Shown here one piece after another: positions 5,340 through 33,402 of a DNA stretch of 64,000 nt. The position numbers and the translations under genes are program-made. Source of the DNA: Methylobacterium sp. J-026 (GTDB taxonomy: Bacteria; Pseudomonadota; Alphaproteobacteria; Rhizobiales; Beijerinckiaceae); NCBI RefSeq assembly GCF_022829585.1, contig NZ_JAKSYC010000284.1, positions 1 through 64,000 on the forward strand. The letters are read 5' to 3'. Every line of letters begins with the position of its first letter. Positions within the stretch are counted from its first letter, which is position 1. Under the pieces are notes generated by a model, which was not told where the DNA came from, searched no databases, and worked only from the letters and a program-made list of their open reading frames with translations.

Positions 5340-5996
5340 ATGCCCGAAGTCATCTTCACCGGTCCGGCCGGCCGCCTGGAAGGCCGTTACCAAGCCCCCA
5401 AGAAGCGCGGCGCACCGATCGCCATCATCCTGCACCCGCACCCCCAGTTCGGGGGTACGATGAACAATCAGATTGTGTACAACCTTTTTTACACCTTCGC
5501 CAATCGCGGCTTTGCAGCCCTGCGTTTCAATTTCCGCGGGGTTGGGCGGAGCCAGGGCGCGTTCGACCACGGCTCGGGCGAGCTGTCCGACGCCGCGGCG
5601 GCCCTCGATTGGGTGCAGTCGGTCAATCCTGAGGCGAAGTCCTGCTGGATCGCCGGCGTGTCCTTCGGCTCTTGGATCGGCATGCAGTTGCTGATGCGCC
5701 GGCCCGAGATCGAGGGCTTCATCTCGATCGCCGCCATGGCGAACCGCTACGACTTCACCTTCCTGGCCCCGTGCCCGTCATCCGGCCTGTTCGTGCACGG
5801 TTCGGAGGACCGGGTCGCCCCCGCCCGGGAGGTCATGCCGGTGATCGAGAAGGTGAAGACCCAGAAGGGCGTCATCATCGAGCACCAGATGGTCGAGGGT
5901 GCCAACCACTTCTTCGACGGCAAGGTCGAGGAGCTCACCCAGACGGTGGACACCTACCTCGACAAGCGCCTGGGCAAGCGCGAGGAGGCGGCCTGA
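5340..5996 (+). CDS. Alpha/beta hydrolase beside suf operon
   Basis: A 218-residue cytosolic alpha/beta hydrolase. The oxyanion-type HPHPQFGGTMNN motif is near residue 33, the nucleophile elbow GVSFGS near 108-113, the probable acid in HGSEDRVAP and the catalytic histidine in EGANHFF near the C-terminus. The substrate is unknown. Relatives of this size are often annotated simply as hydrolases and are frequently found next to Fe-S assembly genes in alphaproteobacteria. It is divergent from the cysteine desulfurase and shares the 265-base promoter region with the ICE-like palindromes, so iron-linked expression is possible. The ATG at 5340 gives the expected beta-strand-first N-terminus. Confidence 0.85.
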   Translation: MPEVIFTGPAGRLEGRYQAPKKRGAPIAIILHPHPQFGGTMNNQIVYNLFYTFANRGFAALRFNFRGVGRSQGAFDHGSGELSDAAAALDWVQSVNPEAKSCWIAGVSFGSWIGMQLLMRRPEIEGFISIAAMANRYDFTFLAPCPSSGLFVHGSEDRVAPAREVMPVIEKVKTQKGVIIEHQMVEGANHFFDGKVEELTQTVDTYLDKRLGKREEAA

Positions 5997-25794: not shown

Positions 25795-27273
25795 TCAGAA
25801 CCCGCCTGACCTCCCCGGAGCGGACGGGGTCCGCCGCAGCCTGCGCCAGCCCGCAACGATCCCGGTCACCGCGACGGACGCCGCCAGGAGATTCAGGATC
25901 CATTGGCCCGCATCGTGGCGCAGGCGGTTTCCGGTGAGCCCCGGCAGGTCGAGGCGGTGCGGGGCATCGAACAGCCAGCGGCTGATCCGGCCCGAGTGAT
26001 CCAGCCGCTGCAGGATCCTCCCGTCCCGGGGGTCGATGTGGAGCCACGTCGAGGCCGGATCGTCGAAGCGCAGGCGCAGCACCGGGAGCGGCCGCGGATC
26101 GGCGCCGTGGGGATACCAGTAGGCATCGTAGGCGGAGAGCTGCTTGGCCGTCCGCAGGGAGCCGCCCGGCACAGCCCGAGCGGCCGCACGGGCGATGGTG
26201 CCGGCTTCGAGGTGGCCGCCCTCCGCCCCGGCGGCGCGGACGCACTCCGGCGCCTGGGCGACGATCCACCAGTCTCCCCCGATGGCGGCAAATCGCAGGC
26301 TTCGGGTCTCCGGCGCGGCGAAAACCTGCAGCTGCCGCGGGTTGAGCCCGAGCGGCGGCGGCGTTCCGGCATAGGCGGAAAGCAACTCCGCGGGCGGCCG
26401 GACCGACGAGAACCAGCGGTTCGGATTCATCGAGATCCAGCCGCTCACGATGAACGCGCCCAGGCCGATCCCGCCCGCGAGGCCGAGCAGGTGGTGCCAG
26501 CGCGCAAGCCCCCGATAGGGCGTCACGGCGCCGCCCGCGTAGCGTCGCCGGAGGCGCAGCCGCCAGATCCCGATCAGGAGGCCGCTCAGCGCCCCGAGGG
26601 ACGCGAACCCCGACAGCCAGAGCAGGAGCGTCCGCCACAGCTCCGCGCGGGCGCGCAGGGGCGTGAGGTAGATCCAGTGCGCCACCGAGCCAACCCAGTT
26701 CCAGGCTCGCTCGGACCGGGTCGTGTCGAGGGCGATCTCGCCGGTGACCTGAGACACGTAGAGTTCGGTTCCCGCCGGATCGCCGAGGGCGACCTTTAGG
26801 AACGGCCGGAGCGGATCGTACTGGGCCGTGACGGTCCACTGGTCGCGCTCCACCGGCTCGACGCCCGCATCCGAAAAACCCGCGGCCGCGAGACGCAGCG
26901 CCTCGCCGGGCGTCACCGGCCCGAGCAATTCCCCGGTCCGCGCCGAGACCGTCGCCCGGGTCCCGTCGTGCTGGCTGATCCGGTAGACGGGCTCCGCCCC
27001 GCGCATCTCCAGTACGAAGGCCGCGGGTACGCCGACGAGGCCGCCGGCGCGGAGCGCGTCGTCCGGCGCAACCGAGACCCGATCCCAGGCGATCGGATCC
27101 AGCCGTGCCAGGTGCTCGGTCTCGGTGAGCGTCGGGAACGGCACGTAGAGCATGACCAGCCCGGAGCCGATCCACAGGGCGAAGAACAGCCCCGCGGCGA
27201 TTCCGGCCCAACGGTGGAACAGGAGCAGCCAGCGCCGCCCCGCCTTGGCGACCCGCCGCGGCCGCCTCACCAC
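25795..27273 (-). CDS. PepSY-associated four-helix membrane protein
   Basis: A 492-residue protein of the PepSY-TM family. The first helix is HRWAGIAAGLFFALWIGSGLVMLYV; a periplasmic region with PepSY repeats covers about residues 45-195; helices two and three lie near 215-285 with a WHHLLGLAGG histidine pair; a second periplasmic region has RLDHSGRISRWLFDAPHRLDLPGL; and a fourth helix is near 460. Conserved histidines in the helices suggest haem binding and electron transfer, as proposed for iron-siderophore reductases next to TonB receptors. It starts at GTG 27273, overlapping the receptor's stop by seven bases, so it forms an operon with it under the cobalamin riboswitch. Confidence 0.85.
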   Translation of the reverse strand: MVRRPRRVAKAGRRWLLLFHRWAGIAAGLFFALWIGSGLVMLYVPFPTLTETEHLARLDPIAWDRVSVAPDDALRAGGLVGVPAAFVLEMRGAEPVYRISQHDGTRATVSARTGELLGPVTPGEALRLAAAGFSDAGVEPVERDQWTVTAQYDPLRPFLKVALGDPAGTELYVSQVTGEIALDTTRSERAWNWVGSVAHWIYLTPLRARAELWRTLLLWLSGFASLGALSGLLIGIWRLRLRRRYAGGAVTPYRGLARWHHLLGLAGGIGLGAFIVSGWISMNPNRWFSSVRPPAELLSAYAGTPPPLGLNPRQLQVFAAPETRSLRFAAIGGDWWIVAQAPECVRAAGAEGGHLEAGTIARAAARAVPGGSLRTAKQLSAYDAYWYPHGADPRPLPVLRLRFDDPASTWLHIDPRDGRILQRLDHSGRISRWLFDAPHRLDLPGLTGNRLRHDAGQWILNLLAASVAVTGIVAGWRRLRRTPSAPGRSGGF

Positions 27274-29450
27274 GTCACCGTATAGGCGACCTCGGCCGAT
27301 CTTGGCCGCCCGAGCAGCCAGTTGGTTCCCACCCCGTTCGCGGCGTTGCCGCTGATCGCGTAGACTTTGTCAAACAGGTTGTAGACGCGCAGGCTCAGGC
27401 GCGATTCGGCCGTCACTTGATGGTCGAGGACGAGGTTGACGAGGCTGTAGGCCGGGCGCCGCGCCGTGTTGCCGAAGTCGCTGTAGACCTGTCCCACGTT
27501 CTGCAGACCGATCCGCGCGGTCCAGTCGCGGACGGGATCCCAGGTCAGCCAGAGGTTGGCCACGCGCTCGGGCACGTCGATCGGCTGGTTGCCGGCATAC
27601 GAGACGGTGGCGCCGCTCACGGTCTGGTCGAACCGGTCGTACTGCGCGTGCAGGAGCGCGAGGTTGCCGTCGAGCCGCCAGCCCGGCGCGAACCGCCAGC
27701 CCAGCGCCAGTTCGAACCCCTGCGAGGATTGGCTTCCGACCTGCGTGGAGAGCGTCGGTTGCCCCGGCACGGCCGAGATCAGATTGTCCTTGACGATCCG
27801 GTAGCCGGCGACCGTCCATTCGAGGGCGCCGTCGAAGGCGAGACCCTTGGTGCCGATCTCGACCTGGTCACCCGTGGCGAGCTTGAAGCCCGCCAGGGAC
27901 TGCGACAGGGTGATCAGGCTGTTCACCGGGTCGGTGGCGACGCTGTACTGGGCGTAGAGCGCGCTGTCCGGCGTCGGGTTGTAGACGAGACCGAACCGGT
28001 AGCCGAGGGCGCGGTAGGTTTTTTCGAATCGCGATCCCGTCTGCAGATCCTCCCGGTGGAGGGTCGGCACGTCGAGGCGCACCCCGGTGAGGAACGACAG
28101 CCTGTCGGATAAAATCACGCGATCCTCGGCGAAGACCGAGGCCTGGCTCGTCTGGGTGGCGTAGGCCGGCCGCGCTCGCCCGTCCTGCGGGAAATAGCCG
28201 GGATCGTAGCCGGTCAGCGGCACGCTGGTGGTCTGGTCGAAGTAAAAATTGTTCGTGTGGCGGAAGTCGATGTGGTTCACGTCGAAGCCGGCCACGAACG
28301 CGTTCTGCAGGCCGAACAGGCTGCCCTTAAGGCTCGCGTCGAGCCGGTCCCCGACCTGCTCCTGGCTGTGATAGATTTCCAGATCGTCGCTCCGGTCGAC
28401 CAGCCCGGAGCCACGACTGTAGGAATACTGCTCGACGTCGAGCCAATGGCGCCGGCTGGTCAGCCGATAGGCGGTGTTGCGCACCGTGATGTCCGCCGAG
28501 GGCGACCACTCGGCCTTGAGCTGGGTCCAGTTGTCGGCCCAGGTGATCTTCGCGTCGCGGACGTTGTAGTTGTTGAACCGGATCAGGTCCGGGATCCGGC
28601 CCCCGACGAGCGGCGTGCCCCAGTAGCGCGCCGGCTCCTGGTAGCCGAGATCGTGGCTGAGCGTGAACGCGAGGTCGGGGCTCGGCTGGAACAGCAGGGC
28701 GGCCGAGACCGCGAGATTGCGAAAATCGCCCTCCGGCCGGACCCAGCCGTCGGCGCAGTTGCCACTGACGCTGAGGCGGTACGCGAAGGTGTCGCCGAAC
28801 TCGACCTGTCCGAGCGCCCCGCCGGAATCGAGGGCGAGCCGCGCGACCCCGTCCGTCCCGATGACCGCGCGGGCCGTATTGATCGGCACGAAGACCGGTT
28901 TCTTCGGCACCACGTTGATCACGCCGCCGATGGCGCCGTCGCCGTAGAGCACCGAGGACGGCCCGCGCAGCACCTCGATCCGCTCGACGTTCCAGGTGTC
29001 GAACGGGAAGGTGACGGTGTTCGCACCCACGTAGAAGCGCGTGCCGTCATAGAGCTGCTGGATTGAGTTCGGGCCTGCGAAGCCGCGGGACGTGAAGGCG
29101 CCGTTGCCGTTGCCGGGTGCCGCGATCGTGGTGATGCCGGTCGCGTCCTGGGTCACGGCCTCGGCGATCGTATCCTGGCCGCGCAGCCGGGCGGTCTCGC
29201 CCGACACGATGTCGAGGCTCGCCGGCGTCTCCAGGGGTGTCAGGCCGATCCGACTCGCGGTCCGGTCGGGCGTGCGCAGGTTGAGGCCGTTCGGCGTGAC
29301 GCGGTTCGGATCGCCACCGGAGCCTTGGACGGAGAGTTCGTCCAGGGTGACGGCCTCCTGCGCCGCGGCGGGATTTGCCAGGAGTGTGAGGAGCAGGCCG
29401 CAGACCGGGGCGGACCCGCCGGAGCGGGGGTGATGGATCGATGGGGACAT
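27267..29450 (-). CDS. TonB-dependent outer-membrane receptor, siderophore type, under B12 riboswitch
   Basis: A 727-residue receptor. The signal peptide ends around ANPAAAQ (residue 31), and a TonB box-like TLDELSV is at about 35-41. The plug domain covers about 60-165, with ERIEVLRGPSSVLYGDGAIGG. A 22-strand barrel continues to the C-terminus, which ends in YTVTW. Plug and barrel resemble the FhuA/FoxA siderophore class, not the shorter BtuB. Yet a cobalamin riboswitch lies about 290 bases upstream on the same strand, so the true ligand may be a corrinoid. The ATG at 29450 fits the signal peptide but has a weak ribosome site. Confidence 0.88.
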   Translation of the reverse strand: MSPSIHHPRSGGSAPVCGLLLTLLANPAAAQEAVTLDELSVQGSGGDPNRVTPNGLNLRTPDRTASRIGLTPLETPASLDIVSGETARLRGQDTIAEAVTQDATGITTIAAPGNGNGAFTSRGFAGPNSIQQLYDGTRFYVGANTVTFPFDTWNVERIEVLRGPSSVLYGDGAIGGVINVVPKKPVFVPINTARAVIGTDGVARLALDSGGALGQVEFGDTFAYRLSVSGNCADGWVRPEGDFRNLAVSAALLFQPSPDLAFTLSHDLGYQEPARYWGTPLVGGRIPDLIRFNNYNVRDAKITWADNWTQLKAEWSPSADITVRNTAYRLTSRRHWLDVEQYSYSRGSGLVDRSDDLEIYHSQEQVGDRLDASLKGSLFGLQNAFVAGFDVNHIDFRHTNNFYFDQTTSVPLTGYDPGYFPQDGRARPAYATQTSQASVFAEDRVILSDRLSFLTGVRLDVPTLHREDLQTGSRFEKTYRALGYRFGLVYNPTPDSALYAQYSVATDPVNSLITLSQSLAGFKLATGDQVEIGTKGLAFDGALEWTVAGYRIVKDNLISAVPGQPTLSTQVGSQSSQGFELALGWRFAPGWRLDGNLALLHAQYDRFDQTVSGATVSYAGNQPIDVPERVANLWLTWDPVRDWTARIGLQNVGQVYSDFGNTARRPAYSLVNLVLDHQVTAESRLSLRVYNLFDKVYAISGNAANGVGTNWLLGRPRSAEVAYTVTW

Positions 29451-29742
29451 GTCGGGGAAAGGTCCGTGCGCAGCTCCCGCCGGCCTGATCGTCCTATAAG
29501 CAACGTAATAACACTGCAATTCCTCGATCGTCCGGATCGCGGACCGCCGACGAGCGCGGGACTGCGTCGTGGGCTCACGGTCGAACGAAACGAGACGGCG
29601 GGAACGGACATCGGGACTGGCGTCGCGGGCGCGCTTGCTGTGGCACGTCACCGCGAACGAGGCCTCGCCGACCGTGCGGGCGCACGGGCGTCTCGACACC
29701 CGCCAGGACACCCCGCCCGACGCGTTTCGCGTGTGACCACGG

Positions 29743-29915
29743 CTGACGGCAGGTCTCCTGGCTCACGGGTCACCGCCCTCGCACCGTCTTCCCGGGGATT
29801 ACCCAGTGACGTGGTGGTGAAGGGCTCGCCGCTTACAGTTGCGGGGGCAGCCACGGCCTCGGGACGGATCCCTCACCGCGTTCCCTTTTGATCCCCGAAG
29901 GGAACCGTCGGACAC
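29743..29915 (-). promoter_or_regulatory. Cobalamin (adenosylcobalamin) riboswitch
   Basis: On the minus strand the core elements appear in order. A hairpin region with GGGAACGCGGTGAGG precedes GCCCCCGCAACTGTAAGCGG (29829-29848), then the CACTGG / GGGAAGACGG segment, then the B12 box GAGCCAGGAGACCTGCC (29748-29764). This is the standard layout of the cobalamin riboswitch, which represses expression when adenosyl- or methylcobalamin is plentiful. It would control the leftward receptor-PepSY operon. About 290 bases separate its end from the receptor ATG, longer than usual. I could not identify the expression-platform hairpin with certainty. Confidence 0.93.
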
Positions 29916-30273
29916 AAGCTTGGCTGCACGCGCCTGGCGCGTCAAGCGTCGGGAATACCCTGCCTGGGGATCCAGCGGCGCGAAGGTCGGTACGCCATCT
30001 TCAGCGGACAAACGAATCTGTGCCGTAATTTTAGGGCGTCTGCTGAGCACGCATCGTTTTTGTGGGTTTTACAGATGCGAATTTAATAGCTTTTCCTGCC
30101 ATGCAATCCCTTATTTACTTACCAATAGTTACGCATCAAATGCTTAAAGATTTTGCATTTTGTCGAAATGGAATTTCTTGTCTCAAAATTCAACCAATCT
30201 GTTAGGGTGCGCGCGTTGATGTTGCGTATTATAACCTGACCGAATCGGCACTGATTTTGAGACGGTTAGGCGA
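29916..30273. other. AT-rich intergenic region between riboswitch and chemoreceptor
   Basis: About 360 bases. The left part (to about 30030) resembles local DNA and must hold the promoter of the riboswitch transcript. From about 30030 to 30260 the sequence turns strongly AT-rich, unlike the rest of the window. It contains TATTAT/TATAAC-like -10 candidates near 30227-30235 ahead of the chemoreceptor ATG. The start of the chemoreceptor gene itself (to about 30360) shares this AT bias. No open frame or repeat is evident. It may be a promoter region or the edge of acquired DNA. Confidence 0.5.
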
Positions 30274-33094: not shown

Positions 33095-33402
33095 ATGACA
33101 GATCCGGGATCGCGGAGATCGGCCCGGCACCGGTCCAATTCCTCATCCTGTATGTTTTCGAAGAAATATCAGCCATTATATCAGCATGTTATATCTTATC
33201 GATGAATATAATATTGATGTAAAATAGAATTCTATAGTATTTATACAATATAACAAACATGGAACGAAACGTGTTCCGCCGCGTAAACCGTGCGGTTCTT
33301 GGCGGTCACATGTCGGGATATCGAAGACCTCGTGATTGCGTCCGCCAAGCTCTTGTCGGGCGACCGGGATATGGCCGGTCGGTATCGCGTGAGGAGCGCG
33401 CA
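33095..33402. other. AT-rich intergenic region before HigA-like gene
   Basis: About 300 bases. From about 33145 to 33265 the sequence is strongly AT-rich and includes TTGATG at 33214 and several TATA-like -10 candidates (about 33233-33245), so it can act as a promoter for the HigA-like gene. The stretch 33266-33400 is open in two frames (starts near 33259 and 33290), but neither product resembles a toxin or other known protein. No hairpin terminator is obvious after the binding-protein gene. Confidence 0.45.

Follow-up and report, generated by a model that had tools for sequence, protein, structure and literature searches.

The 64,000-nucleotide stretch of Methylobacterium sp. J-026 analyzed here (positions 1 to 64,000 of contig NZ_JAKSYC010000284.1, RefSeq assembly GCF_022829585.1; hereafter "the window") contains a gene for a TonB-dependent receptor followed by one for a PepSY_TM membrane protein, behind a leader that carries a cobalamin riboswitch and a Zur-type operator (Table 1). 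We consider it moderately probable, from comparison of sequences, that this pair provides a receptor for a small cobalt chelate together with a heme reductase facing the periplasm, and that it would be called up by shortage of either B12 or zinc. This reading is built on the riboswitch, the families of the receptor and reductase, their invariant residues, the genes that adjoin them in relatives, and the Zur-type sites, all of which are observed. The accessible text of a 2021 review states that no cobalt-specific outer membrane receptor had been confirmed (PMC7689651), and the present family is a widespread candidate for one; it comes with a reductase partner and occurs in methylotrophs that are open to genetic work.

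From these elements we infer cobalt as the metal, its chelate, the reduction step, the binding of Zur, a second promoter, and an OR logic. When adenosylcobalamin is scarce the riboswitch would permit the receptor–PepSY transcript, and zinc shortage would also switch the gene on through the Zur-type operator, probably with a promoter of its own; since the operator lies below the riboswitch, zinc shortage could raise expression by bypassing it. If Zur blocks just the transcripts that pass the riboswitch, the two controls would combine as AND, not as OR. The receptor would import the chelate via TonB, and the PepSY protein would use two hemes to relay an electron to the metal in the chelate, converting Co(III) to Co(II) and loosening it. 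Free Co(II) would then enter by CbtBA, or in relatives by a NiCoT permease or a BtuFCD-like ATP-binding cassette (ABC) importer, to feed B12 synthesis and perhaps to replace zinc. Should the two stacked control elements operate in this way, one gene would join B12 and zinc status, and such control would support the view that bacteria take up cobalt in order to save zinc.

Table 1. Features of the receptor locus, in positions of the window.
Feature	Positions	Strand	Basis and remarks
Cobalamin riboswitch aptamer	29731-29924	-	RF00174, 129.9 bits, full length
Post-aptamer element, complementary arms GTGGTCACACGCGA ... TTCGCGGTGACGTGCCAC	29640-29741	-	Conserved; overlaps the 3' end of the aptamer model
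Zur-type operator GCAACGTAATAACAC (+ strand)	29500-29514		Between riboswitch and start codon; like the pden1338 site tested by electrophoretic mobility shift assay (EMSA)
TTATAG, -10-like box beside the operator	29494-29499	-	Found by eye; many leaders have T-N-T-A-G there
CrtA-like TonB-dependent receptor, 727 aa (P0001)	27267-29450	-	Plug and barrel domains; TIGR01783; 9RVQ best solved relative
PepSY_TM protein, 492 aa (P0002), FoxB/CrpH-like heme-histidine set	25795-27273	-	PF03929; invariant histidines; FoxB 7abw

Riboswitch, receptor and PepSY_TM partner

An earlier sequence-only reading of this DNA had described a B12 riboswitch in front of a receptor of the siderophore class, rather than a BtuB, with a PepSY-TM partner, and this description holds on all three counts. 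The riboswitch model RF00174 (gathering score 31.5 bits) aligns with the leader over positions 1-189 of 189 with an E value of 2.4e-32, and as a member of that family the aptamer is predicted to bind adenosylcobalamin and thereby lower expression. The element that follows it has a two-arm pattern shared by 60 of 66 leaders and by three of the four other riboswitches of the same genome, each of which precedes a TonB receptor; the riboswitch of the cbt/cob genes is without it. The element is probably the expression platform and perhaps one specific to receptors. Folding gave the element a z of 0.42, no support for a stable fold beyond chance, and covariation in the arms is not assessable because they hardly vary.

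The receptor frame stops at 27267 and was judged to start most likely at the ATG at 29450. Its N-terminus resembles a signal peptide and is followed by AVTLDELSV, which we read, again by judgement, as the TonB box. The protein passes the siderophore receptor model TIGR01783 (242.9 bits against a cut-off of 223.5) and fails the B12 receptor model TIGR01779 (72.1 against 599.7). Among all solved chains its top match is 9RVQ (304 bits; 489 bits with a profile), which is CrtA of Bordetella pertussis (PMC12914433). Fold comparison of the receptor leaves the classes unseparated: FoxA (Z 39.3) and FhuA (Z 38.5) head the list and BtuB follows at Z 36.7, so that with all three within about 3 Z units the fold gives no verdict on the ligand. 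9RVQ is not among the 50 fold matches listed.

CrtA imports chelated Cu(II); a PepSY_TM gene comes after crtA in more than 75% of cases, and a DUF2946 (cruR) leader is present in more than 40% (PMC12914433). Its site has six conserved residues, Y130, W265, E337, Q356, H358, and R395 (PMC12914433). The window receptor keeps W265, E337, and H358 as its W277, E340, and H361, and E340 and H361 are present in all 65 rows of the riboswitch group (counting the window and 64 loci but not one fragment). In an alignment of 34 rows it has V at position 130 and I at 356, and Y130 and Q356 occur solely in CrtA and in a Variovorax homologue (locus L188). The counterpart of R395 is unsure, being H in this alignment, with R397 alignable by another gap. 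With three of six site residues clearly kept and a distant position in the tree, the window receptor is a relative of CrtA, not CrtA proper. Its locus resembles that of CrtA (BfrG, PDB 9RVQ/9RVX) and CrpH in the best solved sequence match, the PepSY_TM partner, and the three shared residues; it differs in having a cobalamin riboswitch and no cruR (DUF2946) leader, although that leader is not a strict requirement for CrtA.

The PepSY_TM gene overlaps the end of the receptor gene by 7 bases and falls outside the positions listed in the sequence-only reading. It matches PF03929 at 31.8 bits (cut-off 28.8), and H199, H260, H261, and H439 are invariant in all 58 rows of its family, with H20 in 57. 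H199 and H439 are, from their positions, the likely counterparts of H200 and H444 of CrpH, the PepSY partner of CrtA, which needs both histidines and supports heme-copper oxidases (PMC13038864). By sequence no solved protein matched, with either the single sequence or a profile. The AlphaFold model (mean predicted local distance difference test score, pLDDT, 83.2) aligns with FoxB 7abw over 264 residues at Z 8.1 and a root-mean-square deviation of 9.9, a modest score that ties with small PepSY domains. The paired histidines predicted to bind heme and the FoxB fold of the model together suggest a PepSY_TM reductase of the CrpH/FoxB kind. CrpH indicates that iron-siderophore reduction is not the sole role of PepSY partners.

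The riboswitch–receptor–PepSY arrangement, which the sequence-only reading had suggested seeking in relatives, recurs widely. A genome scan for receptor relatives gave 76 loci, cited here by L number, and the 3' motif of the riboswitch lies within 900 nucleotides of the mature receptor start in 65 of them. Two of the 11 loci without it (L038 and L046) are cut by a contig end, so that the count is 65 of 74 loci with upstream DNA. RF00174 itself, run on 22 of the 76, agreed fully with the motif (13 present, 9 absent). A PepSY gene follows the receptor in 49 of the 64 riboswitch loci where this could be judged, L079 being cut and outside the count. Close homologues occur in seven of 150 genomes of the order; five of these lie outside the family, and RF00174 is present in four of them but not in L178. 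Among plasmid records 27 match the receptor. In 12 of the 15 examined, RF00174 stands before the receptor or opens the run of genes to which it belongs; the three without it are L183, L185, and L188. The riboswitch-led relatives span alpha- and betaproteobacteria. Their partner varies and may be PepSY, a BtuFCD-like ABC importer (L066, L175, L176, L179, L180, L187, and two other Azospirillum records), or neither.

A Zur-type operator below the riboswitch

Between riboswitch and start codon lies a palindrome, GCAACGTAATAACAC, that matches in 13 of 15 letters the pden1338 site of Paracoccus denitrificans, one of the EMSA-tested Zur sites described as GTAACGTAATAACAT and similar (PMC5387054), and in 18 of 21 the consensus of the relatives' leaders. 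The sequence-only reading makes no mention of it. The palindrome scores at least 17 of 21 in 49 of the 65 relatives' leaders; elsewhere in the same loci it was found at eight places in 2,036,698 positions scanned, one of which is the leader of the cut locus L038. When its 15-base core was sought in nine genomes with at most one mismatch, 56 matches were obtained against 9 for the reversed pattern. Of 28 loci obtained, nine are leaders of this receptor, and 15 of the 19 others, judged from the translated starts of their neighbors, lie by a ZnuA-type, a COG0523, or another TonB receptor gene; the remaining four (L133, L141, L143, and L145) are not assignable to zinc genes. In the genome of the window the pattern gives 20 listed matches against 8 when reversed. 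It adjoins genes for ZnuA (PF01297, 304 bits), a COG0523 GTPase, a Zur-like protein, and a TonB receptor, and the other matches have no recognized zinc gene beside them. The Fur-family protein at one of these sites is nearest to Zur at 113.3 bits, below the cut-off of 167. The leader site is classed as likely Zur-type, with binding and repression by Zur as a prediction. The TTATAG box beside it is a possible second promoter.

Searches of the literature that covered few subscription papers returned no report of a cobalamin riboswitch and a Zur site together in one leader, nor of the kinship with CrtA and CrpH, the stacked Zur-type site in this family, or the apparent exchange of leaders described below. 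In two Azospirillum plasmids Zur-type sites stand above the riboswitch of the run of receptor and ABC importer genes (L180, 1570-1587; L194, 2480-2497), and these may serve a gene on the other strand; L193 has none.

Which ligand the pair may carry

Three options had been raised in the sequence-only reading, a corrinoid, iron, or a cobalt chelate. The riboswitch-led arrangement that it noticed is real, and its interpretation is partly supported, the cobalt chelate being the option that now stands best. This ligand fits best because relatives of the receptor adjoin cobalt and B12 genes, as seen in four cases picked from the loci read. In Sphingomonas paeninsulae (L184) the receptor, PepSY, and a NicO family permease (NiCoT) are joined by a second riboswitch, cobW, and cobN. 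In Enterovirga (L066) DUF1636, CobW-type, and CobN-type genes lie on the other strand under a riboswitch of their own. L174 adjoins two tetrapyrrole (corrin) methylase genes and a CobB/CobQ-type gene, and in Azospirillum brasilense (L193) cobN lies upstream of the receptor.

The rest of the genome leaves a place for such a protein. RF00174 is found at six places, which leaves five riboswitches, since two of the matches, one closing contig C263 and one opening C77, have the same sequence and are probably one. One heads a BtuB-type receptor, a BtuC-type permease, and a gene that is BtuF-like by its position; TIGR01779 is the best match of this BtuB-type protein, at 248 bits and under the cut-off of 599.7. 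Another heads CbtB and CbtA (67.9 and 143.6 bits), CobW, and CobN. As B12 uptake and inner membrane cobalt uptake are both covered, an outer membrane cobalt receptor would complete the set. Two further riboswitches lead other receptors. That on contig C95 (from 57110; L083, 13109-16708) precedes a siderophore-type TonB receptor and a membrane protein of the acyltransferase type HGSNAT_cat, and that on C65 (23635-23438; L084, 9635-7165) a TonB receptor of another kind, with just 77.5 bits to TIGR01783.

TonB receptors under adenosylcobalamin riboswitches have already been predicted to serve cobalt (Rodionov 2006, as cited in PMC7689651 and PMC2773004), so that the window receptor is of a kind previously proposed and known to us through the citing papers. 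By description it shares with them the riboswitch, the TonB receptor and, in some relatives, NiCoT and CobW as in Novosphingobium; the Zur-type site of this family goes unmentioned in the citing text available. For Methylobacterium on methanol, cobalt is a growth-limiting metal, and a different TonB receptor, IcuA, raises its uptake, with no difference under zinc titration when icuAB is overexpressed (PMC2732905). IcuA is likewise a TonB receptor of the same group, but on the published description has 704 aa and an IcuB (COG5266) partner where the window receptor has 727 aa and PepSY. There is a precedent for cobalt uptake under Zur in PA2911-PA2914 of Pseudomonas aeruginosa, a Zur-regulated receptor and ABC set reported to import pyochelin-cobalt, cobalt easing zinc shortage (PMC11481552). 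The likeness, again by description, would lie in Zur-type control and a receptor for a cobalt chelate against zinc shortage; the accessible description of that set makes no mention of a riboswitch, which the window receptor has.

Several observations weigh against the cobalt reading. The nearest characterized relative, CrtA, carries copper, and its key His and Glu are kept here throughout the riboswitch group. The genus already has a known cobalt receptor in IcuA (PMC2732905). No PepSY neighbor is present in 15 of the 64 riboswitch loci that could be judged, so reduction is not always needed at the receptor locus. On the side of zinc control, 16 of the 65 leaders lack the Zur-type site (scores of 12 or less out of 21), and four relatives at the level of the order (L174-L177) show none at 14 of 15 letters. 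The site in the window is imperfect: the strict pattern does not find it even when two mismatches are allowed. Another place of the window, at 33200 (-), also scores 13 of 15 to the tested site, so that for the window taken by itself the assignment rests on conserved position and not on the letters. A consensus scan for promoters and terminators found no promoter at the operator, did not recover the TTATAG box, and found no terminator.

Riboswitch-led receptors are often B12 receptors, and several relatives adjoin a BtuFCD-like importer, so that the window receptor could act as a further BtuB, whose substrates might be incomplete or other corrinoids and whose PepSY partner would reduce the corrin cobalt. 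We regard this as unlikely. The receptor does share the cobalamin riboswitch and the barrel fold with the BtuB–BtuFCD system, but it is far from BtuB in the TIGR01779 score given above, and it retains the Glu and the His by which CrtA forms its site for small chelates. The separate BtuB-type receptor of this genome, itself led by a riboswitch and accompanied by a BtuC-type permease, weakens the case for a corrinoid. Zur control would make little sense for a corrinoid, and a BtuF-like partner is no proof of one, as CbtJKL of Sinorhizobium meliloti, similar to BtuF, carries Co(II) (PMC7689651).

The Zur-type site, present in 49 of 65 leaders, and the account of CrtA as a scavenger that takes carboxylate-bound metal with low selectivity (PMC12914433) would suit a receptor that serves zinc chelates, or divalent metal chelates in general, with B12 control as a side branch. 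This too seems improbable, since the riboswitch is wider than the Zur site and is present where the site is absent (the 16 leaders and L174-L177), and the redox chemistry of PepSY would be useless for zinc. MetE was considered as a link between B12 and zinc and was dropped, TIGR01371 being unmatched in all 23 genomes of the genus, which counts against the zinc reading.

Transport of chelated copper as in CrtA, with a riboswitch acquired for some other reason, appears more doubtful still. CrtA is the closest solved protein, PepSY is the partner also found in crtA operons, and three close paralogues have DUF2946-like leaders. Against this, the genome has no match to DUF2946 (PF11162), the riboswitch is kept across alpha- and betaproteobacteria, and Y130 and Q356 are absent. 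Methylobacterium hispanicum and Methylobacterium gregans each have a riboswitch copy and a DUF2946-type copy (L026/L068 and L027/L067), and this coexistence argues for separate tasks.

The family names, the TIGR01783 match, the fold list headed by FoxA and FhuA, and the FoxB-like partner (FoxA and FoxB serving ferrioxamine uptake and reduction) would suggest a receptor for iron siderophores that works with a ferrisiderophore reductase. This is very unlikely, since that fold list fails to separate the classes and the control elements found are of the B12 and Zur types, with no sign of iron control, although no scan for Fur, Irr, or RirA sites was made. Opine metallophore synthesis was sought with the model PF10100, which matched none of 37 genomes; as the control genomes gave no match either, this result carries no weight.

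Copper-type sisters and a possible exchange of leaders

The three paralogues just mentioned (L067-L069, about 54% identity) come from M. hispanicum, M. gregans, and Methylorubrum thiocyanatum. They are receptor–PepSY pairs with a small DUF2946-like frame upstream and no riboswitch. The match of these frames to DUF2946 is below the cut-off (17.2-19.4 bits against 23.7), and they have C-C-x3-C instead of CxxC but do end in RAPP. The leaders of L185 and L188 pass the cut-off, and that of L178 has no Pfam match.

In the tree of 34 rows the three paralogues fall inside the riboswitch rows (support 90/90), within a group of 19 rows (100/99) whose other members are all riboswitch-led, while a quick tree instead places them beside all 66 riboswitch rows (Shimodaira–Hasegawa-like approximate likelihood ratio test, SH-aLRT, 87). 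At least four changes between riboswitch and DUF2946-type leaders are counted on the tree, and a single riboswitch clade was rejected by the approximately unbiased test (p-AU 1.3e-5), both figures including weak leader calls. With DUF2946-type sisters inside the riboswitch group, the scaffold seems to have passed from one kind of metal control to another several times. We tentatively suggest, at rather less than an even chance, that a receptor–PepSY scaffold for small chelates has been re-assigned between metals by exchange of its leader (DUF2946 peptide, riboswitch, or Zur operator), and that the Methylobacteriaceae have stacked riboswitch and Zur site as an OR gate of RNA or protein, acquiring cobalt for B12 or as a substitute for zinc. 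With the three kinds of control (copper-type, cobalamin, and zinc) apparently swapped on one scaffold, sequence by itself would be a poor basis for naming metal receptors.

Some further loci deserve record. In the Variovorax homologue (L188, 4318-9200) the DUF2946 leader, receptor, PepSY, and an SCO-family gene form one run, a copper-type set in which Y130 and Q356 are present. Four Methylorubrum-type loci (L029, L041, L056, and L079) have a small RNA of the mmgR/suhB type (RF00519, 71-74 bits) about 100 nucleotides above the riboswitch. L050 has two riboswitch 3'-end motifs, at 5352 and 5452, 100 nucleotides apart before the receptor, and RF00174 matched the first one only. On pSymB of S. meliloti (L192, 21247-24549) a cobalamin riboswitch is followed by genes for a substrate-binding protein (26.5% identity), a BtuC-type permease, and an ATPase (42.7%), which from their fit to the published description are probably cbtJKL.

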